64,000 nt of DNA. It comes from an uncultured Aquimarina sp. GTDB lineage: Bacteria > Bacteroidota > Bacteroidia > Flavobacteriales > Flavobacteriaceae. The notes below the pieces were generated by a model. That model was given only the letters and a program-made list of their open reading frames with translations. It did not search any database and had not been told where the DNA came from. The position numbers and the translations under genes are program-made. The stretch spans positions 238,686 to 302,685 of the forward strand of contig CANMMM010000002.1 in assembly GCA_947498935.1 (NCBI GenBank). Reading direction: 5' to 3'. Below, in pieces: positions 23,484 through 46,576 of this stretch; within the stretch, counting starts at the first letter, position 1, and the number at the start of each line of letters is the position of its first letter.

Positions 23484-24137
23484 TTAAAATGTATGTATTG
23501 GTATATTTTGTACTGTTATCGGCACAGTATCTAAAGGAGTTTCTGATGCGATATGGCAGCAATAATCTGCCGATACCTTAATTTCTGAAGTATAAAATCG
23601 TTGTGTATCAATCTCCGTAGTATCTTCATGAATTTCAAAGGACTGTAATGGAATAGACAATCCATTTCCATGCGCCTTTAGCACAGCTTCTTTTTGCGTC
23701 CAATAGGTATAAAATGCTGCTAGTCTATCTGTAGCATTTAATACGCGCTTCGCTTCATTAGCTGTCATCTGACATTCAAACACTGCGACATCAACTGGCT
23801 TTACTTGCTCTATATCAATCCCTATACATGGATAGTTATCTGCAATACAAGCCACCGCCATCTCGCCAGAGTGCGAAATATTAAACAATGTATCATTATT
23901 TTTTAAATACGGTTTGTCATAATGCGAAAAACACAATTCATGCATATTTATTGATTGCTGAAAACGCGTAAAACCTTCTCTGACCAATAATCTACCGAGT
24001 AAGGATAACTGCGCATCTTGCCATCTTCTGAATCGCGACAATCGCCTTTGGTATTCCTCTGTAAATAATCCAAGATACTTGTCTAATAGCGCATCGTGCT
24101 TCGTCTCATCTAGTTCCGTATATAAAATGTACATCAC
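23484..24137 (-). CDS. sfp: 4'-phosphopantetheinyl transferase, Sfp type
   Basis: 217 residues. Family signatures are present: the N-terminal RRLSRFRRWQDAQLSLLGRLL, the FNISHSGEMAVACI block, the magnesium site GIDIE and the WTQKEAVLKAHG motif. The enzyme moves the phosphopantetheine arm of CoA onto the serine of carrier domains. Its stop-to-start spacing to the upstream NRPS gene is three bases, so it is the last gene of that transcript and surely serves the seven T domains and the free carrier protein of this locus. Confidence 0.95.
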   Translation of the reverse strand: MMYILYTELDETKHDALLDKYLGLFTEEYQRRLSRFRRWQDAQLSLLGRLLVREGFTRFQQSINMHELCFSHYDKPYLKNNDTLFNISHSGEMAVACIADNYPCIGIDIEQVKPVDVAVFECQMTANEAKRVLNATDRLAAFYTYWTQKEAVLKAHGNGLSIPLQSFEIHEDTTEIDTQRFYTSEIKVSADYCCHIASETPLDTVPITVQNIPIHTF

Positions 24138-24140
24138 CCC

Positions 24141-27100
24141 TTAAAAATTAAAATCTATAGCCAGTGCTTCTTCCTGTTCTGACTCTAATATATGAGTTTT
24201 AAGCTTTACTACAGGCATATCAGATTCTTTTGTTACAGTTTCTAACAAATGTAGAAAAACTGTGTGTAACATCGTAATCGTACTTTCTTGATACAAACGT
24301 GTATCATAAGAAGTAGTGAGTTGTAGCAAACCATTCGCTTCGAAAAAGTTACATAACAGAGGGACTCTACTGTATTGTGTATCCATCGGCTGATACTGTA
24401 ATTGCACATCACCCATACGTATGCCCTCTTGGTATGCAAAATCTGGATTCTGATAGGTCACTAATATATCGAATAGCGCTTGCTGCGCAATGGCTACTGG
24501 CAACTCTTGATAGGTAGCGAGCTGTACTAATTGCTGCTGTACCTGTGCCAATACTGTAACAAATGATCGTGACTCATCCAATTGTATACGCAGCGGCAAG
24601 GTACTGGCAAACATACCGATCATATGTGCTATATCACTAGAATTCCTACCCGAATGCACTGTACCCAACACGATGTCTTTATGCCCACTGAGAGTATAAA
24701 TCAGTATATTCAGTAGTGTGACCACTACACTGTAGGGCGTACTCTGGTGTACAATAGCTAATTGTTTTAGGGCTGCTGTCTGTACAGCATCTAATACCAT
24801 CGTACTATGCTGCCCTGTCATCGTCGCAGAAGTGGTTGTGATAGGATCTACTACAATGCTTTGTTTAGGTTTGTACCCTGCTAATAGTTTTGTATAAAAT
24901 GCTATAGCTACCTCATCAGTCTCCAGTGCATCCATATACACTGCGTAATCCTTGAATTGCAGAGGCATATCGGTATTGCTGCTTGATACTCCCTGATAGG
25001 TATTGATCAATTCTTGGGTAAGAAATACCAATGACATACCGTCTATGATGATATGATGTGTACAAAACACTAATGTCGTACGCCTCGATTCACTATTATG
25101 TACCAACAGTATTCGTAGCAATACATCACTTTCGAGGTCAAAAGGAGTATGTATATACTCTTCTATCACGGAATGCGTAGCAATAGCAGTAGGAGTAGTT
25201 ACTGTATCCATCGCAAATACTACCTCCTCAGCAGTGCGTATTTTCTGAACTACATTCCCCTGCTGACTAAAAAAATTAGTACGTAAAACCTCATGTTTCA
25301 ATAATAACTCTTGCATCGATTGCTGCAATCGATTTGTATCAAGGCTGCCTTCTAACTCAAAAACAGCTACCATATTATAAGCAATCGATCGTTCTGGTTG
25401 CTGCGCAGCCATCCACAACTGATACTGTGCAGACGTAATAGGATATACCGTTTGTACTGCTGCTTGCGGAATAGTACTGTGTTGCTGCTGTGGTTGTGTT
25501 TCTAAAAACTGAGAAAAAGCAGCAATCGTAGGATACTCAAAAATATCGCGCAATGCAATTGCACATCCATATTGGGTAGTGATATTATGGGCTAATTTTA
25601 CAGCATTGAGCGAGTGCCCTCCTAGTGCAAAGAAATGATCATGGATACCGATAGCCCCATTATAATCCAGTGCTGCTTTCCACAATTCGACAAGCTGTTG
25701 TTGTACGGCAGTACTAGGATGTGTGGGTTCAGAATCTGTATGATGGATCGGTAGCGCACTGTCAGCTAATGTCTTTCGATCTATTTTTTTATTGGGGGTT
25801 AATGGAAAAGCATCAATCGCTACCCATGTACTTGGAATCATATAACTAGGTAATTCTTCCCTCAGTATAGCACCACTCTCTTCGATCTCATAAGACGCCA
25901 CTTCTTTCTGGATATACGCTACTAAAAATGCCGCTTGTCCTTGCTGTTTTTTACTCACCACTACCGCTTTTCGTATCTGCTGAATTTGATCGAGTTTGGT
26001 TTCTATATCGCCTAGCTCAATACGATACCCACGGATTTTTACCTGATGGTCATTTCTGCCTAAAAAAACCAATTCGCCTGCCGAATTCCATTGTACAAGA
26101 TCATTGGTGTTATAGATCAAGCCACTACCATGCGGATTTTTGATAAACTTCTGTGCTGTACGTATAGGATCTCCCACATACCCTTGCGCCAATCCATCAC
26201 CTCCGATATACAATGTCCCTTTAGCACCAATAGGTACTAATTGCAATTGTGCATCCAACACATAGAGCTGCGTATTCGCAATCGGAGTACCGATAATCGT
26301 TGCCTCTTTTGCGTGGTTAATTTTTTTAAGAGACGACCATATGGTTGTCTCCGTAGGTCCGTACATATTCCATACAGCAGCGCAATTGCTCAGTAAATTT
26401 GCTGCTAAATCCTGACTCAACACATCTCCTCCGCATAAGATTTTTAATCGCTTATCACCCTGCCATCCTCCATTGAATAACAATTGAAAAAAACTAGGGG
26501 TAGCTTGTAATAGTGTAGGTGCTACCTCTGCAATCGTATCCATCGTCTGTGTATGAGATGATAACGTAGCATTAGCAGCCACATACACACTCGCTCCAAC
26601 TACCAAAGGCGCAAAAAACTCTAAAACTGAAATATCAAAGGAGTACGTTGTAACTGCAAATAACACATCGGTATGTCCAATACCGGGAACCACGCACATG
26701 CTCTTCAAAAAATTGATTAACGAGCGATGTCCAATGGCTACCCCTTTGGGATTACCTGTAGATCCCGAAGTATAAATGATGTAAGCCGTAGTTGTCGGCG
26801 ATACTACCGGCAGTAGCATCTGCGCTTGATCTGCAATTGGTGTTAGTAGTTTAGCTAATGGTACTACTTCACAATTAGAAAACATATTTGTTTTCTTTTG
26901 ATCACTGATCACATACTGTAGCTCGCTATGCGTAATAATGTACTGCAATCGATTATGCGGAAACGTAGGATCTAGCGGAATATACGATTTCCCTGCCTTC
27001 ATAATCCCTAGTAATGTAGCTAGGGTATATACGGTACGCTCTAGCAATACGCCAATAGCAGGAGGCGCATCTTGTAATCCGATAAGATGCTGTGCAATAG

Positions 27101-28571
27101 TATCTGATACTTGGTCCAATGCTTTATACGATAGTATTGTCTGAGCATCGCTTACCGCTGTTTTCGTTGGGTACAGCAGTGCGGTTTCTTTAAACGCCGT
27201 GAGCAATGTCGTTTTTGAACGATCGACTTTAATCCCTGTCGTATTAAAGGTAGTCAGTAACTGTTTTTTTTCTAATGCTGCTAGATAATTAAATGCCACT
27301 AATTGTTGATGAGGCTGCGCTAGTATCGAGTACAATAGCTGCTCAAAATGGCCAACCATTCTAGACATCTGCGCCTGATCAAAATACCCTAGATTGTAAT
27401 CAAAATCAATCGTTACATCCTTGGTATCATCAAACTCCCTAACGTAGATCGCCAGTGCTACACGCTCTGACTTGTGTGATAAGGGGGTAACCGTGGTATT
27501 CGTATCCTGAAAATGTGCCGCGTAGTTCTGTTTTTCATACGACACTGTTATATGAAACAACTGCCCTTTTTCCTGAAAACCTGTAAGTTCCTGAATCAAT
27601 TTTCCGATCGGAAAACGCTGATGGCGGTAATCCTTACGCAATTGGTTTTTAATCGCTAGTAACAGCTCTTGGAAAGAAGTCTCCATATCTAATTGCATCC
27701 TCAGTGGCGTGACTCCCATAAATAAACCTACCGTTTTCTTTAAAGCAGCCGTTCCTCTGTTTAGCACTGGAAGTCCAATCACCATATCATTTTGCTGATA
27801 TACTCTGCCCATATACACATACAGCGCTCCTAAAATCAGATGAAAAGTACTGACCCCGAATTCTCTAGCCACTTCGCCTAATTGATCATACATAGCCCGC
27901 TTAATATACAGGGGTTGTCGCTCACTCTGGCACGCATACCCTTTGGTCACTTTCTTTTCAAATAACTGAGAAGGCAGCGACTCAAAACGTGTTTTCCAAT
28001 AGTCCAGATCCGCTGTATACTGCGCCGATGCCTGATAGGCTGTATCATTATCCATAAAATCCTGATACGTATATGGATATTGGGTCTGAATCGCTCCATA
28101 TTGTATCAGTTCATTATAATTCTGTACCAAACGCTGAAACATCAATGAAGCCCCCCATCCATCTGTAATAAGGTGATGATATACAGAAAATAGATAGTGC
28201 TTCATAGGACTCACCTTGACCAATATAAAACGGTGTAGCAAATCCCCACTAGTCATCTCAAAGGGTTGTACAAAAGTGGCTTGCATAAATGCCACTGCAC
28301 GCACATCGGCATCCGCATACATCGAAAAGTCCTGAATGGGCAAGGGCACTAAAAATTCTCCTGTAATACGTATTGCCAACGTATCGTTCTGCATATAATA
28401 GCGCGTCCTGTAGGTATCATGCTGTCGTATCAAATGCTGATATGCCTTTTCTAAAATACTTACATTGAGTACTCCTTCAATACTTATGCTGGCACCGATA
28501 TTACAAACCGGTTCTTCTGGATATAATAATTGCTCGAAATAAACATCTTGTTGTGGTAATGTGAGTTTCAT
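24141..28571 (-). CDS. NRPS, one module plus terminal condensation domain (C-A-T-C), predicted Gly
   Basis: 1476 residues. Order: condensation domain (about 1-440, HHLITDGWG near 132), adenylation domain (about 455-960, A3 YIIYTSGSTGNPKG near 600, A5 NMYGPTETTIW, A8 GRNDHQVKIRGYRIE), carrier domain (FFALGGHSLNAVKL near 984), then a complete second condensation domain (HHIIIDGMS near 1174). The hand-read ten-residue code is DILQLGMIWK, close to known glycine codes (DILQLGLIWK). There is no docking helix at the start, no epimerase and no thioesterase. It is probably the last NRPS to act, with the terminal C domain releasing or cyclising the chain, but its order relative to the other proteins is inferred. 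It is followed by sfp. Confidence 0.93.
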   Translation of the reverse strand: MKLTLPQQDVYFEQLLYPEEPVCNIGASISIEGVLNVSILEKAYQHLIRQHDTYRTRYYMQNDTLAIRITGEFLVPLPIQDFSMYADADVRAVAFMQATFVQPFEMTSGDLLHRFILVKVSPMKHYLFSVYHHLITDGWGASLMFQRLVQNYNELIQYGAIQTQYPYTYQDFMDNDTAYQASAQYTADLDYWKTRFESLPSQLFEKKVTKGYACQSERQPLYIKRAMYDQLGEVAREFGVSTFHLILGALYVYMGRVYQQNDMVIGLPVLNRGTAALKKTVGLFMGVTPLRMQLDMETSFQELLLAIKNQLRKDYRHQRFPIGKLIQELTGFQEKGQLFHITVSYEKQNYAAHFQDTNTTVTPLSHKSERVALAIYVREFDDTKDVTIDFDYNLGYFDQAQMSRMVGHFEQLLYSILAQPHQQLVAFNYLAALEKKQLLTTFNTTGIKVDRSKTTLLTAFKETALLYPTKTAVSDAQTILSYKALDQVSDTIAQHLIGLQDAPPAIGVLLERTVYTLATLLGIMKAGKSYIPLDPTFPHNRLQYIITHSELQYVISDQKKTNMFSNCEVVPLAKLLTPIADQAQMLLPVVSPTTTAYIIYTSGSTGNPKGVAIGHRSLINFLKSMCVVPGIGHTDVLFAVTTYSFDISVLEFFAPLVVGASVYVAANATLSSHTQTMDTIAEVAPTLLQATPSFFQLLFNGGWQGDKRLKILCGGDVLSQDLAANLLSNCAAVWNMYGPTETTIWSSLKKINHAKEATIIGTPIANTQLYVLDAQLQLVPIGAKGTLYIGGDGLAQGYVGDPIRTAQKFIKNPHGSGLIYNTNDLVQWNSAGELVFLGRNDHQVKIRGYRIELGDIETKLDQIQQIRKAVVVSKKQQGQAAFLVAYIQKEVASYEIEESGAILREELPSYMIPSTWVAIDAFPLTPNKKIDRKTLADSALPIHHTDSEPTHPSTAVQQQLVELWKAALDYNGAIGIHDHFFALGGHSLNAVKLAHNITTQYGCAIALRDIFEYPTIAAFSQFLETQPQQQHSTIPQAAVQTVYPITSAQYQLWMAAQQPERSIAYNMVAVFELEGSLDTNRLQQSMQELLLKHEVLRTNFFSQQGNVVQKIRTAEEVVFAMDTVTTPTAIATHSVIEEYIHTPFDLESDVLLRILLVHNSESRRTTLVFCTHHIIIDGMSLVFLTQELINTYQGVSSSNTDMPLQFKDYAVYMDALETDEVAIAFYTKLLAGYKPKQSIVVDPITTTSATMTGQHSTMVLDAVQTAALKQLAIVHQSTPYSVVVTLLNILIYTLSGHKDIVLGTVHSGRNSSDIAHMIGMFASTLPLRIQLDESRSFVTVLAQVQQQLVQLATYQELPVAIAQQALFDILVTYQNPDFAYQEGIRMGDVQLQYQPMDTQYSRVPLLCNFFEANGLLQLTTSYDTRLYQESTITMLHTVFLHLLETVTKESDMPVVKLKTHILESEQEEALAIDFNF

Positions 28572-28779: not shown

Positions 28780-30414
28780 TTATACCCAAGATAACTCTTG
28801 CATAGCTGCTGTGTTCTTTACGGCTATATCTTTTACGATCTGCCCGTAATCGAATTTGATGATACGATCTGCATACTTAAAATAAGCATCATCATGCGTA
28901 ACCGCTATAATGGTTTTTCCTTGTTGTTTGAGCTTCGGTACAAGTACTGTATAAAAGTAATTTCTGAAATGAGGATCTTGATCCGCCGCCCACTCGTCGA
29001 GTACCAAAATAGGCTTATCTTCTAGTAGCGCAAAGATCAGTGACATCCGCTTACTCTGCCCTTTAGAGAACTTACGCCTTGCAGCTTCCTCGCTATCGTC
29101 TGTAACTACTGCATCCATTTTCATCAGTTTCAATAAATCTTGATATACAGTATTGTTCTGCAATTCGTAAGACTCGTAGTTATGAGAAAACAAATGATTG
29201 TCTGTAAACACAGCTGCCATTAGATGTTGTATATCTGATATAGCGGTAGTAGCCACTCCATTGAGTAGTGCTGTACCCGCTGATGCATCATACAGTTTGG
29301 TCAGCGTTTTGATAAAAGTACTTTTTCCAGATCCATTACCTCCTACTACAAAGATCGTTTCCCCTTGCTCGATGGTTAGATTCAGTGGCCCTAATGTAAA
29401 CTGCGAATCCTGTTCTGAAGTGGTTTGGTATGTATAACTAAGTTCTTGGAAGGTTAGTGATTCAAAAGTGGTATGAGTTGCCTGCGCTTGGGGTGTTTCT
29501 GTAATCTCAAAATCTTTGACAAATTTATGAATCCGTCGGTTGGCTACCATAAACCGCGTATATACCTGTTGTAGATTGATCAGATTATTGATGGGCCCAG
29601 AGATAAATAGAATAATCACTACATAGGCGATCACATCACTCCTATCCAATAACTCTAATGCTGGTAACAAAAATAAAATCACAGCGATCACAAAATACAA
29701 ACCATACTGACTGATGAGATTGATCGATAAAAAGACATAATTGATTTTAAAATCCAATACGCCTGCTTGGTCTCTATTGGGTATTAAAAATCGATTCATC
29801 AAGTGATCTCTCCTAAAAAAACTCAATTTCAATTCCTTGAATCCCTTCATCACATCGTCTACAAATTTGTAATAATGATCATTATAGACTCTGAGTTCTT
29901 CTACTTTTTTAGACATGGAGTTCATGACTACAAAGTAACAGACTGCCACTAGTGCGATCAATGCGACTACAATAAGTGCTGCGGGTACTGATAGTGTAAA
30001 TAAGTATACGAGGCATAGGACGACCATAAGCACCGAATTGATCGTATGGGTAACGGTATAGGGCAAGTGGGCAAATACTCGTAAGTCCTCTACTGCGGTA
30101 AAAAAGCGCTGAGAGCCTAACTTCTCTAATACATCTAGGGGTATTTGTAGCATTTTGCCAAACAATTGTTTTTCATTTTCATATAACTTCTGAAATGAGT
30201 GCTTGTTTAGTTGTTTCTGAAACACAATATTCAGTAAATATGTGTACATAATCAGTGCCAGAAAAACCAACCCCATGTAATCTTTTAGAAATACTGTATT
30301 GGCTGCTAATGCATTATTAATGATATAAATAATCCCAAAACTAAGCAAGGTATTAGGGATGGCATAGGCCAATAGAAAGAGTATTTCTTTGACCGAGATT
30401 TTAAATAATTGCAT
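28780..30414 (-). CDS. Cyclic peptide export ABC transporter (SyrD/PvdE type), fused permease-ATPase
   Basis: About 544 residues from the ATG at 30414 (MQLFKISVKEILFLL); upstream in-frame codons contain no membrane-protein features. Five to six membrane helices occupy about residues 1-310. The ATPase follows with Walker A VGGNGSGKST, a degenerate signature FSKGQSKRMS and Walker B LVLDEWAADQDP. The DEWAADQDP version is the hallmark of exporters that sit with lipopeptide and siderophore NRPS genes and move the peptide across the inner membrane. It fits export of the product of this locus. It has repeat copies on both sides. Confidence 0.92.
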   Translation of the reverse strand: MQLFKISVKEILFLLAYAIPNTLLSFGIIYIINNALAANTVFLKDYMGLVFLALIMYTYLLNIVFQKQLNKHSFQKLYENEKQLFGKMLQIPLDVLEKLGSQRFFTAVEDLRVFAHLPYTVTHTINSVLMVVLCLVYLFTLSVPAALIVVALIALVAVCYFVVMNSMSKKVEELRVYNDHYYKFVDDVMKGFKELKLSFFRRDHLMNRFLIPNRDQAGVLDFKINYVFLSINLISQYGLYFVIAVILFLLPALELLDRSDVIAYVVIILFISGPINNLINLQQVYTRFMVANRRIHKFVKDFEITETPQAQATHTTFESLTFQELSYTYQTTSEQDSQFTLGPLNLTIEQGETIFVVGGNGSGKSTFIKTLTKLYDASAGTALLNGVATTAISDIQHLMAAVFTDNHLFSHNYESYELQNNTVYQDLLKLMKMDAVVTDDSEEAARRKFSKGQSKRMSLIFALLEDKPILVLDEWAADQDPHFRNYFYTVLVPKLKQQGKTIIAVTHDDAYFKYADRIIKFDYGQIVKDIAVKNTAAMQELSWV

Positions 30415-30593
30415 GATGTTTTTTTGTGTGTTTTTGTAGCACCTACAGCTATCGCGACCTTCTTTATATTGGTTTCGTATCGAAAAAAAACACCGCTCCC
30501 CGCGCACTACACTATTGCATACTCGCTATTGCTCTATACGTGCCAACGATGTGTTGATTCGTGTAGATTGCAGATGGTGTACACACTATTGCC

Positions 30594-30684
30594 GCGTTAG
30601 GGATAGTAGTGAAAATCCCACAGCACCGACCGATAGGAAGGTGCGAGGAATTGTAACGGATAGCCCGACCCTTGGGGAACGCCC
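30594..30684 (-). repeat. Dispersed repeat family 2, copy 4
   Basis: GCGTTAGGGATAG start and GGGGAACGCCC end. Its last base is part of the TAG stop codon of the flavoprotein gene, so the element ends exactly at the reading frame. The gap from the exporter start to here otherwise holds only AT-rich sequence. Confidence 0.9.
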
Positions 30685-31796
30685 TAAGAGGACATAGCTA
30701 CAATCTTTTCGGAAAGCCGCTCTGTGATGTGGTAACAGTTCTTTAGAAAGAAATTAGGCATCTTTCCAAAACTTTTCATTCCGATTACGTAATAAGGAAT
30801 GTCTGTGACGTGTAGGTCTTCTAAATCATAAGAAATTTGACACGAAGAATTTACTTCGGGATCAATTTTGGTTTTTAATGCTGTTGGACACTGAAATTCA
30901 GCATCCAATTGGATATCAATGTTCGTGAGCAACGAGTAATCTGGGTGACAACCTGTATTGGCAAATATTTTATCCACCTCTAAAGTGGTTCCATTGGCAG
31001 CTGTAAGCACATAACTGTTGCCCTGAGGCTGTGACTGCTGTATCGCAAAATGCTCATGCAGTTGTACTAGCTTTTCTGTCACATAGCCTTGTACGGTATC
31101 TTCTAGCTTTTTGCTATTAGAATGGGCTACATTATTGAATTTTGCATTGTTTCGTACCAACCAATGAATGGCTAACGAGGGCTGTGCTGCTTGTAGTTTG
31201 ACCAAGGATTTCAGGCTATTCATGGCCGAGTGTCCATTACCTATTACGGCGACACTGCTATAGGCGGGCAATTGCTTTTCGATCTCTACATCGGCAATCG
31301 AATGCTCGATCTGATCGGTTGCTGCTGTGACTACCTGATTGTAATGCCCCCAATTTCCAGAGGCATCAATGACTGCTTGGCTATGTACCTGATGGGGTGT
31401 TCCTTCTTTTTCGTAGGTGATCGTAAACTGATGATCGGTATACTGTATATCTATCACCCTAGCGCCTAAGGTGATGGAATCTTGTAACAGTGGTAGTTCA
31501 GACAAGGGTTGGAGGTAATCGTCTACCAGTTCTTGCCCTGTAATAAAAGTAGTGGAGCGTTGTACTATGTTTTTTAGTTTGTACTTAAGGAAATGTTTTG
31601 TTAATAATGCATCTACATCTGTATCTACGACAGCATGTAGGGGGGTGAATAGGTGTACATGTCCCCATTCTAGGACATTGCTCCCTACTCGATTTCCTTG
31701 TTCTAATACTAAAAACTGCTCGTTCTTAATTGCCAATTTAGCCGCCATGGTCATCCCGATAGGGCCTGCTCCGATGATCACCGTTTTACTGTTCAT
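30684..31796 (-). CDS. FAD/NAD(P)-binding flavoprotein oxidoreductase
   Basis: 370 residues. The N-terminal dinucleotide fold is VIIGAGPIGMTMAAKLA with an acidic end LVLEQG. A second Rossmann motif, VIGNGHSAMNSLKSL, lies near residues 190-205 and should bind NAD(P)H. An EWGHVHLFTPLHAVVD segment follows the first fold. The layout is that of two-nucleotide-fold flavin monooxygenases or reductases, not of the ornithine N-hydroxylase or halogenase types. I recall related flavoproteins beside arsenic resistance genes, but not securely. The gene lies 17 bases after the ArsN-like gene, so it belongs to the same transcript and may oxidise or reduce the metalloid-containing intermediate. Confidence 0.75.
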   Translation of the reverse strand: MNSKTVIIGAGPIGMTMAAKLAIKNEQFLVLEQGNRVGSNVLEWGHVHLFTPLHAVVDTDVDALLTKHFLKYKLKNIVQRSTTFITGQELVDDYLQPLSELPLLQDSITLGARVIDIQYTDHQFTITYEKEGTPHQVHSQAVIDASGNWGHYNQVVTAATDQIEHSIADVEIEKQLPAYSSVAVIGNGHSAMNSLKSLVKLQAAQPSLAIHWLVRNNAKFNNVAHSNSKKLEDTVQGYVTEKLVQLHEHFAIQQSQPQGNSYVLTAANGTTLEVDKIFANTGCHPDYSLLTNIDIQLDAEFQCPTALKTKIDPEVNSSCQISYDLEDLHVTDIPYYVIGMKSFGKMPNFFLKNCYHITERLSEKIVAMSS

Positions 31797-31813: not shown

Positions 31814-32305
31814 CTATATGTTTGTAGATCTTCTTTCTAGGAATGTTACATCTCTCCATACAGCGTCCATTTTTCCAATTTTTTCTCGCGTACCTACTGT
31901 TCTAAATCCTTTGTTTAGATGTAATTGTATGCTAGGTATATTTTCTGGAAAAATACCACATTGCAATGTCCAGATATTATTGTTCTCAGAAAACGCAATT
32001 AGATGATCTAATAACACACTTCCGATGCCTTTTCCTCTTTGTTCTGTATCTACATATACGCTCACTTCGGTAACACCTGCATAAACGGCTCTGCTACTTA
32101 CTAGGCTTAAGCTACACCATCCTACTACATGTTCATCTACTGTGTATACACTGATCGATTCATTGATCTTGCCACTACTCCACTGCTCATAGGTGTAGGT
32201 AGCTACATTCGCTGCAGACTCAAATGTGGCATTTTTCGTGGCGATTCCTTGGATATAAATTTCCTGTATTCGAGGCCAATCATTTGAGTTTGCAGGTCTG
32301 ATCAT
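31814..32305 (-). CDS. arsN: ArsN1/phosphinothricin-type N-acetyltransferase (GNAT)
   Basis: 163 residues from the ATG at 32305 (MIRPANSNDWPRIQEIY); the upstream ATG at 32329 would overlap the previous gene. The GNAT acetyl-CoA loop is QRGKGIGSVLLDHLI. The flanks match the Pat/Bar/ArsN1 group: NATFES near residue 25, TEVSVYVD, the GIFPENIPSIQLHLNKGFRTVG segment and the KMDAVWRDVTFLERR end. These enzymes acetylate the alpha-amine of phosphinothricin or arsinothricin and give resistance; in bialaphos synthesis the same step prepares the NRPS substrate. Five bases separate it from the ArsL-like gene. Exact substrate is inferred from context. Confidence 0.78.
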   Translation of the reverse strand: MIRPANSNDWPRIQEIYIQGIATKNATFESAANVATYTYEQWSSGKINESISVYTVDEHVVGWCSLSLVSSRAVYAGVTEVSVYVDTEQRGKGIGSVLLDHLIAFSENNNIWTLQCGIFPENIPSIQLHLNKGFRTVGTREKIGKMDAVWRDVTFLERRSTNI

Positions 32306-32310
32306 AGTTT

Positions 32311-33543
32311 TTATCCTTTTATGCAACAACGCATTTTGATGTCTACATTGTCTCCTACTTCATTGGCATACATTTCATCTACTTGTGCGTCTGCATGCTT
32401 CCAATCATAATACGTGCCTTTGTCTACTAATTCTAGTGATTTGATGGTGTCATTATCTAACAACGGCGACCCTTTGTAGAGTAGCAAACGTGTTTTTAAT
32501 TGCATCTCATCAATATCTTCCATAAGCTTTGTGTCCTTTAGATAGTCTCCAAATTCGGCTAACTGCTTATTATCCATCCATGGATTATAGGTGATGAATG
32601 TAGGTACGATTTTAATCCCTGTTTGACGGAGAATTTCTAACCCTTCATTCATCTCTGCTAATGTAATCTTTTTTTCGAATTCTTTCAAGACTTGGTCTGA
32701 TGGAAATTCGAATGCACTGGTGATTTCTACGCATCCAAAGGCTTTTAAATCTGCAAAAAACTCTCGATACCTAATTACATCGTCTAAGCGTAGGGTGATG
32801 TCATAGGTAAGCTCTGGAAATAAGTTATGAATCGCTTCGATCACCTTGATACCTCTCTTACCTGTAGAAAAGAAATCTGCATCGATCACTGTGATGTGTT
32901 CTGCTCCCATGGCTACTAGTTGTTTTACATCTTCTAGTATCGCTTCTAGTGGATATTTAACAACGCGTTTCTGATAGGCGGCAAAGACAGAACAATAGGT
33001 ACATCCGTGAGCGCACCCTCTCATGGTCTCGATATTACCTACTAGTTTTCCGTTTTTGTAGGCATAGTTTTTTAGCGCTGGTAAGCTAGATCGATCGGGA
33101 GCTAAGAATTCGGTTCTTCTCAGCTTTTTTTCTGGGTACTTATTCGTAGTAGAATACACAAAATCTACTGCATACGGATCTGTACCATCGAGTATACTTT
33201 TGGTAATATCTCGGAGTACGGTTTCGAACTCTCCCATCACTACTAGACATTGTGCGTCTATCAAGAAGGTTTCTGGCTGTACAGTGGCATATTGATTGTA
33301 AAACACAATATGCTTATCATACCCTTTTTGGCGTATTTCTTTGGCCATTTTTACAGCACTATCGATGGCGCCAAAGGTAGGCACCGAAAAAGCGATCAAT
33401 GCACTAGTGGGATCATAAAAATATTCTTCTTGTGTGGTATCAAAAAGAGAAACTGTGGCGTGTGGGTCTAAAAAAGGTTTTACAGCGGCTAATCCTAGTG
33501 GCTGAAATCCTACTTCATCTGTGGATATTAATTGAACTTTCAT
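32311..33543 (-). CDS. ArsL-like radical SAM enzyme with RCC tail
   Basis: 410 residues. The radical SAM cluster motif is CAHGCTYC (CxxxCxxC) near residue 180, preceded by ETMRG. The N-terminal ~130 residues form a B12-binding-like alpha/beta domain starting KVQLISTDEVGFQPLGLAA, without the usual DxHxxG cobalamin motif. The last residues are RCCIKG. I recall a group called RCCLKC-tail radical SAM proteins, to which ArsL of arsinothricin biosynthesis belongs; ArsL transfers a 3-amino-3-carboxypropyl group from SAM to As(III). Here the final Cys is Gly. It lies 12 bases after the ArsM-like gene and 5 before the ArsN-like gene. Assignment to the ArsL group is likely but the reaction is not proven. 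Confidence 0.75.
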   Translation of the reverse strand: MKVQLISTDEVGFQPLGLAAVKPFLDPHATVSLFDTTQEEYFYDPTSALIAFSVPTFGAIDSAVKMAKEIRQKGYDKHIVFYNQYATVQPETFLIDAQCLVVMGEFETVLRDITKSILDGTDPYAVDFVYSTTNKYPEKKLRRTEFLAPDRSSLPALKNYAYKNGKLVGNIETMRGCAHGCTYCSVFAAYQKRVVKYPLEAILEDVKQLVAMGAEHITVIDADFFSTGKRGIKVIEAIHNLFPELTYDITLRLDDVIRYREFFADLKAFGCVEITSAFEFPSDQVLKEFEKKITLAEMNEGLEILRQTGIKIVPTFITYNPWMDNKQLAEFGDYLKDTKLMEDIDEMQLKTRLLLYKGSPLLDNDTIKSLELVDKGTYYDWKHADAQVDEMYANEVGDNVDIKMRCCIKG

Positions 33544-33555
33544 GGATATGATGTA

Positions 33556-34617
33556 TTAGCAAGAAACGCAACACGCAGCTTCTTCTTGGTTAGTAGATTC
33601 TATTTTGTTTTCTGGATTGATAAATACGAAGTCTTTTCCTGCAAAAGAACGCAGATGATCAAAGGTTTCTTCGCATACGAATACGCGTTTTCCTTTTGGA
33701 TATTTGTGATCCAGATCATCGATGATTTCATTAAAAGGACCTTTGTAGATTACTTGATACTCGCAGTTATTACATACGGTATTGACTGGTTTGAATCCTG
33801 TAAGAGTTACCGATCTAAAATCGATGCCTTCGATTTCTCTCCATACATCATTGTTCCAGTTCTCATATTTTACGTGGGCGAATCCATCTTTTACGAAGAC
33901 TCTCCCAAAATCTTCTTCTTCGAAACTACCTGTTAGGCATTCTGCCCATAAATTATCTTTGATTTTTAACTCGTGTGGTACGGTTTTAGAGCTTACAATA
34001 TCAGAAATCACGAATCGACCTCCTGGTTTTAGGACTCTATAGATTTCCTTAACCAAGGATCTTCTGTCTTCTTCTTCTACCAAGTTTAATACACAATTAG
34101 AAATCACTACATCATACGAATCACTAGGAATGGCTGGGGCATTGCGCAAGGTTTCTAAATAGGCATTAAAGTTTTTGATGTCTGAAAACTGACTGATGTC
34201 ACTTTTTTGTATATACCCATCTACCTTGTCTAGATCGATTTTCATGTCTTGGATTTCTGCGCGTACAAAATTGACCTTCCCTACATTTTCTCGGGCATTC
34301 ATTTCATCTTTGTACTTAGTAGCGATCTCTAACATATCGGTATTAATATCTACCCCTGTTACTTTACCACTAGGCCCCACTACTTTAGCGGTCATGTAGC
34401 ACATTTTTCCTACCCCCGATCCTAGATCCAATACATGATCACCTTCTTTGACATATAATGACGGATCTCCGCATCCGTAATCCTTGTCGATAATCTCTTG
34501 TGGCAATCCTTCTAATAATTCTGGATTGTACGATGTTGGGCAGCATAAATTAGGTGTGGCAGCTTCAGCTGCGCTAGAGTATACTTCTTTTACTTGTTCT
34601 TTGATTAAGTTCTCCAT
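33556..34617 (-). CDS. ArsM-like SAM-dependent methyltransferase with Cys-rich tail
   Basis: 353 residues. The SAM site is VLDLGSGVGKMCY, with VTGVDINTDML as motif II. The cysteine positions of arsenite methyltransferases are kept: NLCC near residue 25, YGCGDP near 47, VISNCVLNLV near 170 and LWAECLTGSFEEEDF near 225. A C-terminal extension has CNNC near residue 279 and ends AACCVSC; long ArsM forms that work with arsenosugar genes also end in Cys pairs. ArsM methylates trivalent arsenic in the cytoplasm. In arsinothricin synthesis an ArsM follows ArsL, the same gene pair as here. Other metalloids such as selenium or antimony cannot be excluded. Confidence 0.8.
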   Translation of the reverse strand: MENLIKEQVKEVYSSAAEAATPNLCCPTSYNPELLEGLPQEIIDKDYGCGDPSLYVKEGDHVLDLGSGVGKMCYMTAKVVGPSGKVTGVDINTDMLEIATKYKDEMNARENVGKVNFVRAEIQDMKIDLDKVDGYIQKSDISQFSDIKNFNAYLETLRNAPAIPSDSYDVVISNCVLNLVEEEDRRSLVKEIYRVLKPGGRFVISDIVSSKTVPHELKIKDNLWAECLTGSFEEEDFGRVFVKDGFAHVKYENWNNDVWREIEGIDFRSVTLTGFKPVNTVCNNCEYQVIYKGPFNEIIDDLDHKYPKGKRVFVCEETFDHLRSFAGKDFVFINPENKIESTNQEEAACCVSC

Positions 34618-34628
34618 GTGTGTGTCGT

Positions 34629-34868
34629 TTATTGATTGTTTTTAGTTTGTAACAAAGCATATACATCTTGTATTCTACAACAAGAAAGCATGTCTTTCAG
34701 TTCGATTTTTAGGTGATATTGATTGTATATTTTGGAAATGATATATACTGCCTGTATAGAATTAAGGCCTGCTTCCCAAATAAAGGTCTCGTATGTGTAC
34801 TTCGTATCTTCTGTAATGTCTCTAAACAGTGATACTATTTCTTCTTTGGCTATAATGGTAGTCTGCAT
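34629..34868 (-). CDS. Free-standing acyl/peptidyl carrier protein
   Basis: 79 residues with the size and predicted four-helix pattern of a carrier protein. The phosphopantetheine site is FIWEAGLNSIQAVYII; the serine lies in LNSI, with Asn in place of the usual Asp before it. A LSCCRIQDVYALL segment follows. The gene lies 49 bases after the Val-module NRPS, which ends in a condensation domain without its own downstream carrier, and 11 bases before the ArsM-like gene. It could hold the building block that this terminal condensation domain joins to the chain, or hold an arsenical amino acid during modification. Confidence 0.82.
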   Translation of the reverse strand: MQTTIIAKEEIVSLFRDITEDTKYTYETFIWEAGLNSIQAVYIISKIYNQYHLKIELKDMLSCCRIQDVYALLQTKNNQ

Positions 34869-34917: not shown

Positions 34918-37900
34918 TTATACTAGTGTGGTGATAAATTCTTCGAAGAAACTGGTATACAACGCTTTCATATCCTCTTCGCAGAATCGGTCTGTATTAA
35001 AATAGTTATCGATAAAAATTTCGTTATTGCTATATTCACTGATGTAGGCATGGAAACTAAATTTTGGTTTATCTGGCGCTTCATCTACCGTAGGTGTGAG
35101 TGCGTAGGCTGCTGCTTGTACGGTGCTCACTGCGGTTTTGTACTGAATATGATTGATAAAGAATTCTATTTTTGGATACTTCTTATTGAGCTTGCTAAAA
35201 ATAAATTCTAATGGATACCCCTGACAGGAGGAAAAGAGATTGTAATCATGGATAAACTCTCTAAACTGTGTTGCTACAGGTACTGTATCTTCTGTAAAAT
35301 CAATCCCCATGATCGAGGTATTGGCAAACAGTCCGATCGTTTTTTCGAAATGAATACTTCTAGAACTCGATGGGTAGGCTACGATACTCTGGGGCTGATT
35401 GAATTTTTTATACACGGCATAGGCATAGAAGAAATAGAGTGTCGTAAACATCGAACACTTATAGGCTTTGGACAAGGCTTGTAATCTATGGATGAGTTCG
35501 TGTGGCAATCGCTGTCTAATAATTTTATAATCGGCTTGACACGCGGGCGTACAGGTACTTTCTTCAGCTTGGGCAGTATCACTACAGCTACTGGAAGTTT
35601 CGGAGCTATCACAGCTGCTGGTCGCTTCGCTACTACAACTGTCTGTAACGGTAGTACTGCAACTTGTAGTGGATTCGGTACTATCACAACTACTCGTCGT
35701 TTCGCTGCTACAGCTGTCTGTAGTGGTGGTGCTACAACTACTAGAAGCTTCGGAACTATCACAACTACTGGTAGCTTCGCTACTACAACTAGAAGCTTCA
35801 GTAGTGCCGCAACCACTTGGTTTAGTTGCAAAAACACCTTGCGAATAGTAATCGAGTAATAGCTGTGTTTTTTGTGGATTGTCTAATAAAGCAGTTCGCT
35901 GATAGGTGATATATTTATCATATGACAGGCTTTCTGAAACGGCATTGTACGCTTTGGTGATCCCTTTACTAACTTCGATATAGAGATTTCGGAATTCTTC
36001 GGCTAAAAGTTGCAGCGAGAATCCATCGATGATGATATGATGTACATTAAATAAAATAGTAGTGGTTTCATTTTCTACTACGATCACATCGAATAAGGGC
36101 CACTGCGACATATCATAGCGCTTGTGCAATAAGTTGCTTTCTTCTTCGCTAATGGATACATTTTCTTTATAAACTGGTGTATAGCTGTCTGTACTGTAGC
36201 GTACTCTAGGATTGTAATGGTCTGCATCTATCACATAAGAACGTAAGGAACGATGCTTATCGATCAATCGATTGATCACTTCATTGGTATGGGCACGATT
36301 GAGCTTTCTAGGGCTGCTGCTCTTAAAAAAAATGTTATACGATATATCATTCTGTACCTTGTCTAAGATCCAAATACGCATTTGTGTAAACGAGAGGGCA
36401 TCAGAAGATATGAGTTCCATCTCTTGCTGTCCTAACTGGTCTAGATATGTAGCGAGTGACTGGATGGTAGGGTACGAGAATAGAATATTGAAATCTACTG
36501 CCTTGTCTAATGTATTGCGAATCTGAGAGGTCAGTTTGGTCATGAGTAGGCTGTTTCCTCCTAGCTCGAAAAAATTATCGGTCGTACTCACCCTATCTAA
36601 TTGGAAGAGGGCTAACCATAATTCTAATAACTTCTTTTCGGTAGGAGTATTTGCGGCTACAAAAGCTGTAACTGCTAAATCTTCTCTACTAATCGCGGGT
36701 AGCAAATCGGCAGCCACTTTTCCATTGTGATTGAGTGGTATGGTATCGAGCTGCTTATAATAACTCGGGATCATGTAGTGCGGCAGGGCTTGTTTTAAAA
36801 GCGTTTTGATCTCACTAGCGGTGATTGCTGCCTGTGTTATATAATAACATACTAGTGATTTATCTCCGTCTTTTTCTTGTACATCTACTACGGCTTGCTG
36901 AATTGCTGGTACGAGCTGTTCTATATTTTTGGTGATTTCTGCCAGTTCGATACGATAGCCTCGGAGCTTGATCTGTGTATCATTTCTACCGATATACTCG
37001 ATCGTACCGTCGGACAACCATCGGGCTAGATCACCTGTTTTATACAGCGTATTCCCTGCTCTAAAAGGATCTTGTATGAATCGCTGACTTGTGAGTTCTG
37101 GCGCATTTACATATCCCTTGGCTACTCCATCTCCTCCTACATATAGTTCTCCTACTACTCCTACAGGACAGAGTGCCAATGCTTCATTGAGTACATAGGC
37201 ATGCGAATTAGGAATCGGTTTTCCGATAGGAATGGATGTTGGGTATTCCTTATCTTCAAGGGTATAGGTCGTAGAAAATGTGGTATTTTCGGTAGGTCCA
37301 TATCCATTGATAATTCGCAAGGAAGGATAGGCTCTTTGTAGCTTTCGGGTTTGGGCTACTGGTACGACATCTCCTCCTACCATCAATTGTGTTAGGGATT
37401 CGAATACTGTGTGGTCTTCTTCTACCACTTGCTTATACCAAGGGGCTGTCATCCATAGACTTTGTACTTCTTCTTGCTGCAAGCATTCTTTGAGCTTGGA
37501 AGTATCTACCAAGTCCTGCTGTGGCATGAGTACCAATGTAGCACCGTTTAATAATGTCCCAAAGAATTCTATGGTTACGGCATCAAAGGAGATCGATCCT
37601 GTAGAGAGCAATGTGAGTTTTTGATCCAGCGCTAAGAAATCTCCTGATTTCACCAAGCTGATAATATTTTTTTGTGTCACCATTACCCCCTTTGGCACTC
37701 CTGTAGTCCCTGAAGTATACATGATGTATGCTAGTGCCGATGGCGTAATTGCTGGTTGGATACATGCAGTGGCATAGGTTTCCTGACGTTCTGTAAACTG
37801 CTTACATACTGCTGAGGTAATGATTGTTTTGCATCCGCTATCCTCGATGATCCATTCTTTTCGATCTTCGGGATATGCTGGATCAATAGGTACATAGGCT

Positions 37901-39714
37901 GCTCCTACGGCTAAGATTCCGAAGATGGTGATCAGTGCTTCCTGACTTTTGGGCAATGAAACCCCTACAATGGAGTGTGTTCCGATTTGATACTCGGATT
38001 GTAGGAAATTGGCAAATTGATATACCTGTTCTTCAAATGCTTTATACGTAAGTGAAACGCCGTTTCCTCGAATGGCTATTGCATCGGGGTTTTGTGCTAC
38101 TTGATCAGCCAACAATGCTACGATGTTTTCTGTGCGTGGATATGAAACTTCTGTGGCATTAAAGCTGTGAAGAAGTTGCGTGGTTTCTGCATCAGACAGC
38201 AAACTCGCTTGGGTAATTGGTGCTGTTGGATTCGCTACTAACCAACCTAACAATGACTGGTAGTGATCGGTTAATTGCGTAATAAATGCCTGCGTGTATA
38301 TATCTGTATTGTATTCTACACTTAGACTCAATCCTGTATCAGTTTCTGTACAACTAAAGGTAAGATCAAACTTGGCAATGCTTCGCGTTGCAGCTTCATA
38401 AGGAGTGATCTCTACGCCTGTAAGTGTATCTGTTGTCGCAAGATTTTGAAGCTGAGATTGGTTTTGTAATACTATCATCACATCGAATAGTGGTGATCTG
38501 GATACGTCTTTTGTGAGATTGAGCTGTGTAATCAGATTCTCGAAAGGATAGCTTTGGTGTGCATAGGCTGCTACCAGTGTTTCTTTTTGGTGTGCCACTA
38601 ACGCATTGAAGGTCATGCCTGCTGGCACTTGTGTACGGATGGCTAATGTATTGATGTATAAACCGATTTGGTTTTCGAGATCTGGGTGCTCACGTCCTGC
38701 TACAGGCGTTCCTATCACAAAATCATCTTGTTGGGTATAGGTAAACAGTAGCGCATTGAGTCCTGCAAATAAGGTGGTAAATAGCGTAACGTCTTTGGAC
38801 TGCGAGTAGTCTTTGAGGGCGGCTAATAAGGTAGAGGAACAATGCTGCTCTACCAAATTTCCGTTAAATGTTTTGACGGCAGGTCTTACATAATCACTAG
38901 GTAAATCCAGCACTGGAATCTGTGTTTCGAACTGACTACGCCAGTACGCATCGGAGGCTTTGTAGGATTCGGATAATGCAAAGGTATCAGCCCATGCGGC
39001 ATAGTCTTTATATTGTATGCGCAATGGAGTTGGTGTATATGTAGCATCTTCTAGCAACTGATTGTAATGCTGCATGACCTCAGCTACTAATAACTCCGAG
39101 GACCATCCATCGCAAATGATATGGTGCAAGGTGACTATTAAGATATGTTCTTCTGCACTTTTAGTCAGTATGGAGGTGTGTAGTAATAACCCATTGGATA
39201 GATCGAAGGTCGTACTTTCTGCCATGGCTACTTCTTCTGATAGCTGCGCTTCGGAATGGTGCGTGACTTCTTTTTGTACTATCGAAAATTCGATACTGTC
39301 TGTATCTGTAATCGTTTGTACTACTTCTTCTGCTGCATCCATGCTAAAATTGGTACGCAGTATTTCGTGTTTGGCGATCAATTGATGAAAAGCACGTTCT
39401 AATACATCGATCTCTAAAGTACCTTTGAGTGCTAATGCACTAGACATATTATAAGCCGTATTCCCTCCTTCGAAACGACTGAGCAACCACATTCTTTTCT
39501 GGGCAGGAGTGGTCACATAGCTAGTCGCAGGAGGAGTGGCAGGGATCGGTACATGATTAGCGATGAGCCTGATGAGGTCTTGTTTGTTTTCTTTTATCTT
39601 GGCTAATAGCGTCTCTGTAAGAGCGCCCTTGGGAGCTTGAATCTTTAAATCGTCTCCTTTGGAGGTAAGCACGATGTCTAACTCCTGAAGCTCGTTTAGT
39701 AAATCTAATTCCAT
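34918..39714 (-). CDS. NRPS with docking domain, one module and a terminal C domain bearing a Cys-rich insert (predicted Val)
   Basis: 1598 residues. Order: TubC-type docking helix (about 1-50), condensation (HHIICDGWS near 200), adenylation (A3 YIMYTSGTTGVPKG near 668, A5 GYGPTENTTFS, A8 GRNDTQIKLRGYRIE), carrier (FFELGGNSLLMTKL near 1053), then a second condensation domain (HHIIIDGFS near 1227). The hand-read code DAIWMGGTFK is close to valine codes. Between the two lobes of the terminal C domain lies an insert, residues about 1300-1393, of Ser, Thr, Glu and Asp with 12 cysteines. The part after it continues as a normal C-terminal lobe, so the insert is in frame and the domain is whole. The adjoining genes are a carrier protein and ArsM/ArsL-like enzymes. 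Confidence 0.93.
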   Translation of the reverse strand: MELDLLNELQELDIVLTSKGDDLKIQAPKGALTETLLAKIKENKQDLIRLIANHVPIPATPPATSYVTTPAQKRMWLLSRFEGGNTAYNMSSALALKGTLEIDVLERAFHQLIAKHEILRTNFSMDAAEEVVQTITDTDSIEFSIVQKEVTHHSEAQLSEEVAMAESTTFDLSNGLLLHTSILTKSAEEHILIVTLHHIICDGWSSELLVAEVMQHYNQLLEDATYTPTPLRIQYKDYAAWADTFALSESYKASDAYWRSQFETQIPVLDLPSDYVRPAVKTFNGNLVEQHCSSTLLAALKDYSQSKDVTLFTTLFAGLNALLFTYTQQDDFVIGTPVAGREHPDLENQIGLYINTLAIRTQVPAGMTFNALVAHQKETLVAAYAHQSYPFENLITQLNLTKDVSRSPLFDVMIVLQNQSQLQNLATTDTLTGVEITPYEAATRSIAKFDLTFSCTETDTGLSLSVEYNTDIYTQAFITQLTDHYQSLLGWLVANPTAPITQASLLSDAETTQLLHSFNATEVSYPRTENIVALLADQVAQNPDAIAIRGNGVSLTYKAFEEQVYQFANFLQSEYQIGTHSIVGVSLPKSQEALITIFGILAVGAAYVPIDPAYPEDRKEWIIEDSGCKTIITSAVCKQFTERQETYATACIQPAITPSALAYIMYTSGTTGVPKGVMVTQKNIISLVKSGDFLALDQKLTLLSTGSISFDAVTIEFFGTLLNGATLVLMPQQDLVDTSKLKECLQQEEVQSLWMTAPWYKQVVEEDHTVFESLTQLMVGGDVVPVAQTRKLQRAYPSLRIINGYGPTENTTFSTTYTLEDKEYPTSIPIGKPIPNSHAYVLNEALALCPVGVVGELYVGGDGVAKGYVNAPELTSQRFIQDPFRAGNTLYKTGDLARWLSDGTIEYIGRNDTQIKLRGYRIELAEITKNIEQLVPAIQQAVVDVQEKDGDKSLVCYYITQAAITASEIKTLLKQALPHYMIPSYYKQLDTIPLNHNGKVAADLLPAISREDLAVTAFVAANTPTEKKLLELWLALFQLDRVSTTDNFFELGGNSLLMTKLTSQIRNTLDKAVDFNILFSYPTIQSLATYLDQLGQQEMELISSDALSFTQMRIWILDKVQNDISYNIFFKSSSPRKLNRAHTNEVINRLIDKHRSLRSYVIDADHYNPRVRYSTDSYTPVYKENVSISEEESNLLHKRYDMSQWPLFDVIVVENETTTILFNVHHIIIDGFSLQLLAEEFRNLYIEVSKGITKAYNAVSESLSYDKYITYQRTALLDNPQKTQLLLDYYSQGVFATKPSGCGTTEASSCSSEATSSCDSSEASSSCSTTTTDSCSSETTSSCDSTESTTSCSTTVTDSCSSEATSSCDSSETSSSCSDTAQAEESTCTPACQADYKIIRQRLPHELIHRLQALSKAYKCSMFTTLYFFYAYAVYKKFNQPQSIVAYPSSSRSIHFEKTIGLFANTSIMGIDFTEDTVPVATQFREFIHDYNLFSSCQGYPLEFIFSKLNKKYPKIEFFINHIQYKTAVSTVQAAAYALTPTVDEAPDKPKFSFHAYISEYSNNEIFIDNYFNTDRFCEEDMKALYTSFFEEFITTLV
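35563..35787 (-). repeat. Three 75-bp tandem repeats coding 25-residue Cys motifs
   Basis: Residues 1310-1384 of the NRPS are three units of 25 residues, each with cysteines spaced 8, 9, 8. Unit pattern: CSSEATSS, CDSSEASSS, CSTTTTDS, with conservative changes. Flanking cysteines at 1302, 1388 and 1392 bring the total to 12. The third unit ends with a diverged last segment. Open frames seen in the other frames here are by-products of the repeat. Confidence 0.95.
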
Positions 39715-46496: not shown

Positions 46497-46576
46497 GTCA
46501 GAGAACTCGTGATTTTGGTGTGTGCAAAATGAGTAGTACAAACAATAGGTATGCTTGTAGTGTATCTATAAAAGTA

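Follow-up and report, generated by a model that had tools for sequence, protein, structure and literature searches.

Bialaphos, the phosphinothricin tripeptide, holds a glutamate-analogue warhead within a nonribosomal peptide and is accompanied by an N-acetyltransferase for self-protection. Here we analyse a locus for which bialaphos would be the phosphorus parallel: in a stretch of 64,000 nucleotides (nt) from an uncultured Aquimarina sp. (contig CANMMM010000002.1; the whole stretch is hereafter called the window), four arsenic-type genes, not phosphonate genes, form a tight block with a carrier protein gene and are surrounded by nonribosomal peptide synthetase (NRPS) genes. Bacterial natural products known to contain C-As bonds are few (PMC12159101). 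The arsQML genes of Burkholderia gladioli GSRB05 (PMC8552651) have in common with the window an ArsM-type methyltransferase with conserved cysteines and an ArsL-type radical S-adenosylmethionine (SAM) enzyme. Upon expression in Escherichia coli, ArsL is required for hydroxyarsinothricin, and the authors of that study propose that it transfers the 3-amino-3-carboxypropyl group of SAM to As(III) (PMC8552651). The plasmid arsQ-arsL-arsM region of Pseudomonas amygdali has the same ArsM and ArsL types, plus ArsN1. Unlike both systems, the window encodes a radical SAM enzyme from a sister clade, ending in RCCIKG, and an ArsM of another branch; it has no ArsQ match among the scanned neighbours, and it adds the carrier protein and the surrounding NRPS genes. 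ArsL-type transfer of the 3-amino-3-carboxypropyl group was reportedly addressed in a 2024 study by Yao and others, which PMC12159101 cites.

Enzymes of a class capable of peptide-bond formation also occur near canonical ArsL. Five plasmid regions with an RCCLKC or ArsL protein were opened. A GNAT or ArsN1 is present in all five; ArsM is annotated in four of them, an ATP-grasp gene occurs in four, and no NRPS gene is annotated in any. On the plasmids of Priestia, Pantoea, Alicyclobacillus and Klebsiella (L008, L009, L011 and L035), which likewise combine an ArsL-type enzyme with a GNAT or ArsN1 (and, in three of the four, an annotated ArsM), the peptide-bond-capable class near the RCCLKC-tail ArsL is ATP-grasp and not NRPS. 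This ATP-grasp enzyme might attach a second amino acid to arsinothricin; such a coupling would amount to an NRPS-free route to an arsenical peptide. The bisenarsan cluster of Streptomyces, too, joins an organoarsenical to an assembly-line product, a polyketide acyl group; in that cluster the C-As bond is made without SAM enzymes, and the assembly line is a polyketide synthase (PKS) and not an NRPS (PMC12159101).

The arsenic-type block

All trio, block and NRPS genes discussed here lie on the minus strand. The block starts with the stand-alone carrier protein (34629..34868, 79 aa), which has an LNS motif and a phosphopantetheine site (PF00550, 23.9 bits, cut-off 20.8). It is followed by the ArsM-like SAM methyltransferase (33556..34617, 353 aa), the radical SAM enzyme (32311..33543, 410 aa), the ArsN1a-like GNAT acetyltransferase (31814..32305, 163 aa from an ATG at 32305; the list of open reading frames (ORFs) places the start at a TTG, 32329) and a Pyr_redox flavoprotein, of a type often encountered next to ars genes (30684..31796, 370 aa), with gaps of 11, 12, 5 and 17 bp. 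An initial annotation of this DNA had described the middle three genes, 12 and 5 bp apart, between NRPS genes and in the neighbourhood of a carrier protein, a cyclic-peptide exporter and an Sfp-type phosphopantetheinyl transferase (PPTase); the ORFs and every one of these neighbours are present as described. To this we add a fourth arsenic-type gene, the flavoprotein, and the close spacing between the genes of carrier protein and methyltransferase.

For each protein of the trio, an arsinothricin-related model is the best NCBIfam match by a wide margin over the next family. The methyltransferase scores 333.1 bits against arsinothricin ArsM (NF040538, cut-off 500; next family 159), the radical SAM enzyme 397.3 bits against ArsL (NF040542, cut-off 450; next family CUAEP/CCAEP, 286) and the GNAT, scanned in its TTG-start form, 136.5 bits against ArsN1a (NF040503, cut-off 170; next ArsN1b, 75.4). 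The resemblance is far above chance, yet none of the three is a curated member of its family. When the initial annotation spoke of the arsinothricin gene set, it agreed with these best matches; it went too far in that all three proteins stay under the curated cut-offs, the last Cys is missing from the radical SAM tail and the methyltransferase falls into a broad ArsM-like family.

The radical SAM enzyme was placed by NCBIfam, a tree and an AlphaFold2 model. The CxxxCxxC motif is present (C177, C181, C184) and so is the RCC tail reported initially; the likeness to ArsL is incomplete, since besides the score below the cut-off the C-terminus reads RCCIKG and not the RCCLKC of the ArsL model, with the CC pair and the K retained. 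Residues conserved in ArsL are also conserved in the aligned window protein. A search of 5.8 billion proteins returned 150 relatives, the best 120 of which were inspected. Among the matches listed, RCCIKG or KCCIKG is the C-terminus of P0002-P0024 (42-66% identity) and of P0026-P0027 (38-39%), and relatives named ArsL by their source share 34-38% identity with the window enzyme. A tree of 76 rows was built from the window protein, every protein above 350 aa among P0002-P0069 (a length limit that excluded the fragments P0025 and P0032), P0089, P0108, P0114, P0118, four plasmid ArsLs and one CUAEP outgroup. In this quick tree without bootstrap, 26 CCIKG rows and 48 RCCLKC rows are split across one branch with 100% SH-aLRT, and a single RCCIKC row falls outside both groups. 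By its sequence, the window enzyme appears to belong to a sister clade of ArsL, outside the RCCLKC rows. It sits with ArsL and apart from the one CUAEP protein used as outgroup, so that the clustering with non-metalloid families named in the initial annotation as a refutation was not seen. The CUAEP/CCAEP family, second best at 286 bits, was ruled out by the tail and by the tree with its one CUAEP outgroup. The AlphaFold2 model has a pLDDT of 92 (below 50 at residues 407-410), and the solved folds nearest to this predicted structure are TsrM, OxsB, AprD4, MgmA and CysS, radical SAM enzymes of the cobalamin class.

Relatives of the enzyme were also sought in sets with genome context. Plasmids gave 39 records, and the best 20 comprise 16 RCCLKC/ArsL proteins, one CUAEP and three relatives at 25% identity; a scan of genome contigs found 3 distant loci, and viral contigs contained no relatives. 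Five genome samples (overlapping draws, thresholds 1e-20 to 1e-40) were searched for the gene. It was found in one of 395 genomes of the class, one of 397 of the family, one of 395 of the order and one of 395 of the phylum, each time its own genome; matches occurred in 4 of the 66 genomes of the genus sample, and the three other than its own are partial (76-85 bits) and were not counted as members.

Placement of the methyltransferase draws on NCBIfam, a cysteine alignment, a tree and PDB matches. Its four conserved Cys, in LCC, YGCGDP, SNCVLN and WAEC, align with those of the arsinothricin ArsM of P. amygdali, which bears out the arsenic-type cysteines noticed initially, and the five best of the eight PDB matches listed are arsenite or arsenic methyltransferases. 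In a quick tree the P. amygdali ArsM, which scores 608.9 bits against NF040538, lies outside on a long branch; as judged from sequence, the window protein is a member of a broad ArsM-like family and not a clear ortholog of arsinothricin ArsM. Against the same model, three relatives whose contig is equal in length to that of a CCIKG enzyme score 337-357 bits, and three without such a link 355-376. The radical SAM-methyltransferase pair seems to recur, because for 8 of the 25 other CCIKG rows the longest contig is as long as that of a methyltransferase (among the best 120 of 6865 matches), an indirect sign of co-location; the sizes in question are 6230, 583144, 4788, 20807, 25204, 11616, 25884 and 7833. 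Two of these eight methyltransferases, P0132 and P0134, stand apart from the other six in the tree, and therefore the pairing with CCIKG enzymes may have arisen more than once.

The GNAT was placed by NCBIfam, alignment and plasmid relatives, and with ArsN1a as its best match it resembles the ArsN1 type first proposed. In PpArsN1, Arg75 and Arg77 bind arsinothricin (PMC6465285). At the corresponding place in a by-eye alignment without PpArsN1, the window GNAT reads SSR, the ArsN1b of P. amygdali RAR and two ArsN1a proteins SHR, so that one Arg appears to be kept. Its best plasmid relatives are 49-53% identical (15 best of 1419 records), and three of the four regions opened adjoin ars genes: ACR3, ArsC and ArsO in Hymenobacter, arsDABC in Cronobacter and a canonical ArsL in Klebsiella. 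The flavoprotein, placed by Pfam and plasmid relatives, is about 30-33% identical to its own plasmid relatives (20 best of 125 records), and in six of the eight regions opened it is accompanied by an ArsR-family regulator or by ars genes, in one case by ArsN1a. With the flavoprotein included, the neighbouring genes of arsenic type number four, each from a different family. The arsenic type of the cassette is well supported and very probably correct, on the basis of the family matches, the ArsM cysteines, the PDB matches and the plasmid regions of the GNAT and flavoprotein relatives.

The NRPS cluster and its relatives in the genus

Four NRPS proteins, with adenylation (A), thiolation (T) and condensation (C) domains, accompany the block. 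N1 (49412..58147, 2911 aa) is built as A-T-C-A-T-C-A-T, N2 (40122..46541, 2139 aa) as docking-C-A-T-C-A-T, N3 (34918..39714, 1598 aa) as docking-C-A-T-C and N4 (24141..28571, 1476 aa) as C-A-T-C; the docking domains that open N2 and N3 are of the TubC type. Their seven A domains have the codes DLYNNALTYK, DVGEIGTIDK and DILQLGMIWK (N1), DAWSLGNVVK and DLYNNALTYK (N2), DAIMMGGTFK (N3) and DILQLGMIWK (N4), which by the usual code rules read as Ala-, Orn- and Gly-like for N1, Leu- and Ala-like for N2, Val-like for N3 and Gly-like for N4. About 200 aa precede the first A domain of N1; no HHxxxD motif was found there, and by eye the stretch looks like the tail of a C domain. A C domain closes both N3 and N4, in N3 with an intact HHIIIDG, and the next gene after N3 is the carrier protein, which comes without an A domain. 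The simplest pairing would place N4 before N1 and the carrier protein after N3, where the line would finish.

The terminal C domain of N3 also holds, at the linker between its halves, a Ser/Thr/Cys-rich insert (35539..35814) with 12 Cys in 92 aa, formed by 2.8 copies of a 75-bp repeat. An arsenic-binding role for this insert is tempting, judging from its composition; as proof of arsenic binding we rejected it, given comparable Cys density elsewhere, chance-level invariance and a low-confidence fold. Among 221 six-frame ORFs of at least 200 aa from 20 pieces of the genome (some surely spurious), three from the piece L052 equal this density of 12 Cys per 92 residues, and a single one from L057 has 10. 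The three repeat Cys are among 16 of 25 invariant repeat positions, counted by hand, which is the chance level; AlphaFold2 predicts the fold with a pLDDT of 52.5, and a homolog search, limited to 8000 candidates, gave no near relative among the 12 matches listed, the insert itself included.

The other genes of the cluster encode a TonB-dependent/OMP beta-barrel protein (46844..49240, 798 aa; PF14905, PF00593), a cyclic-peptide-type ABC exporter (28780..30507, 575 aa; TIGR01194, 288.2 bits, cut-off 286.2), the Sfp-type PPTase (23484..24137, 217 aa; PF01648) and an alpha/beta hydrolase with a TAP-like domain (21181..23094, 637 aa; PF00561, PF08386). Neither an ArsR-type regulator nor an arsenite pump was found in the scanned window ORFs. 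Divergent from N1, on the plus strand (59511-61766), lies a 751-aa protein whose match to a 2OG-Fe(II) oxygenase falls just short of the threshold (26.2 bits, cut-off 27). The genome has 13 AMP-binding matches, 7 of them in the cluster. Two of the other six were examined as loaders of the carrier protein (codes DMWIAASIVK and DFVTSGYVYK), and neither looks Glu-like by the usual code rules. The first belongs to a 1034-aa protein (L026, 2946-6050), the remainder of which has no Pfam domain and by eye resembles a membrane-bound oxidoreductase; the second is a 507-aa stand-alone enzyme in a locus with, as seen by eye, sugar-transferase-like proteins.

Orthologs of the exporter (55-69% identity) mark nine related clusters (L082-L099) in eight other genomes of the genus. 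An N4-type C-A-T-C module lies downstream of the exporter in all nine, in G800 with some 8 kb of other genes in between, and its code shows the same nine aligned letters throughout, the tenth column being gapped. The hydrolase is found in seven of the nine, the PPTase in six and the TonB-type protein in six (one at 25% identity). These clusters share the exporter and the N4-type module with the window; in contrast, none of the nine gave a tblastn match (E up to 1e-3; 40 kb searched in each of eight, 30.7 kb in one) to the carrier protein, methyltransferase, radical SAM enzyme, GNAT or flavoprotein. What varies across the nine is the core of the NRPS and the set of tailoring genes that lies upstream of the exporter; the exporter itself and the Gly-type module are shared. 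Four slot genes were scanned: a thioesterase and a TauD-type dioxygenase in G794, a Pyr_redox flavoprotein in G813 and, upstream of the exporter in G816, a Lys/Orn monooxygenase (341.4 bits). The block occupies the tailoring-gene slot of a cluster family, which argues against a random landing.

Proposed pathway and alternative explanations

The best single explanation is, in our view, that the four arsenic-type genes and the carrier protein make an arsinothricin-like amino acid that is joined to the nonribosomal peptide, a reading to which we give close to even credence. The radical SAM enzyme would act in the way suggested for ArsL and transfer the 3-amino-3-carboxypropyl group from SAM to As(III), yielding a hydroxyarsinothricin-like amino acid. 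The methyltransferase would then methylate the trivalent arsenic of this amino acid, the flavoprotein would set the arsenic oxidation state, and the GNAT would N-acetylate stray free arsenical amino acid, thereby protecting the cell. On the assembly line, N4 (Gly) would be followed by N1 (Ala-Orn-Gly), N2 (Leu-like, Ala) and N3 (Val-like), and the first module of N1 would rely on the C domain at the end of N4. At the end of N3, the C domain would link the chain either to an arsenical residue held by the carrier protein or to the arsenical amino acid in free form. Finally, the ABC exporter would secrete the product, which the hydrolase may trim. The initial annotation had likewise put forward an organoarsenical peptide pathway; its arsenic chemistry is supported, and the entry into the peptide we infer from gene and domain order, as we do the order of the modules and every catalytic step.

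Several observations weigh against this reading. All three trio proteins score below the curated NCBIfam cut-offs, and the radical SAM tail is one Cys short of RCCLKC. Among the sampled genomes the radical SAM gene occurs only in its own, and no second linkage to an NRPS was found there. The GNAT relative of Pseudoalteromonas is not beside ars genes; of the flavoprotein relatives, that of Kurthia has no ars genes around it and the Sinorhizobium region carries no annotation. By the usual code rules none of the 7 A-domain codes in the cluster looks Glu-like, and no carrier-loading enzyme was identified among these and the two of six other A domains. The genome itself (G000, estimated to be 99.96% complete) has no match to ACR3 (TIGR00832) or ArsB (PF02040), which is odd for a genome that carries an arsenic-type cassette. 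Moreover, the N3-like proteins of G798, G794 and G822a end in a C-like stretch, without the HHxxxD motif and without the Cys-rich insert, in clusters that have no carrier-protein match; a C-like stretch at the end of a protein can thus do without a stand-alone carrier as partner, and the last domain of N3 may act otherwise than proposed.

An alternative is a pathway that stands on its own: the arsenic-type genes would make a free arsinothricin-like amino acid, or detoxify arsenic, and would have settled in the tailoring slot of a cluster whose peptide is arsenic-free. In E. coli, arsinothricin is made with no more than ArsL and ArsM (PMC8552651), and the five opened plasmid ArsL regions, all with a GNAT or ArsN1, lack an annotated NRPS gene. 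The lack of a recognised Glu-like A domain in the cluster points the same way. However, the carrier protein heads the tight block, the block is present only here when compared with the nine related clusters, and the regulator and pump genes sought in the window ORFs, like ACR3 and ArsB in the genome, gave no match. We consider this separate pathway rather unlikely.

Less probable still is that the CCIKG enzyme has left arsenic for a different acceptor, for example as a peptide-tailoring enzyme that passes part of SAM to a substrate bound to a carrier, to the peptide or to some other metalloid, with the methyltransferase and GNAT acting on that product. Its ArsL score below the cut-off, the long separating branch and the lost tail Cys would fit, as would the nearest solved folds of the model, cobalamin-class enzymes, some of which act on carbon substrates. 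This is countered by partner genes that are arsenic-type in both family and context, and by the CC pair and the other ArsL-shared residues kept in the tail; we regard such a departure from arsenic as improbable. A hydroxamate siderophore, in which the flavoprotein would hydroxylate and the GNAT acylate ornithine, is suggested by the presumed Orn code of N1, the TonB-type protein, the weak Lys_Orn_oxgnase side match of the flavoprotein (PF13434, 33.8 bits, cut-off 21.3) and the true Lys/Orn monooxygenase upstream of the exporter in G816, but we rejected it as very improbable: the flavoprotein, not a clear N-monooxygenase, reaches a tenth of the bits of the G816 enzyme (33.8 vs 341.4) and matches Pyr_redox_3 best, its Kurthia plasmid relative has the same weak side match (25.0 bits) and its Arthrobacter ars-operon relative, the other one scanned, has none, the GNAT matches ArsN1a first, and the ArsL and ArsM relatives would remain unexplained.

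Returning to the incorporation of an arsinothricin-like residue, we tentatively suggest, at somewhat less than even confidence, that the locus makes the first nonribosomal arsenopeptide, with a warhead from a sister enzyme of ArsL held on its own carrier and a C domain with an arsenic-binding Cys-rich loop. With the same reserve, the product could be an arsenical antibiotic delivered by a peptide, an arsenic-based analogue of bialaphos. In open-access titles and abstract openings, a scope outside which most subscription journals fall, we found no report of an arsenic-containing nonribosomal peptide. The peptide aside, the CCIKG clade offers a new system in which to study the function of the RCC tail of ArsL. 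Additionally, the genus-wide cluster with its variable tailoring slot makes a test feasible, in which strains that carry the block are compared with strains that lack it. An arsenical residue in a nonribosomal peptide, if true, would define a new class, joining the fields of ars genes and NRPSs.

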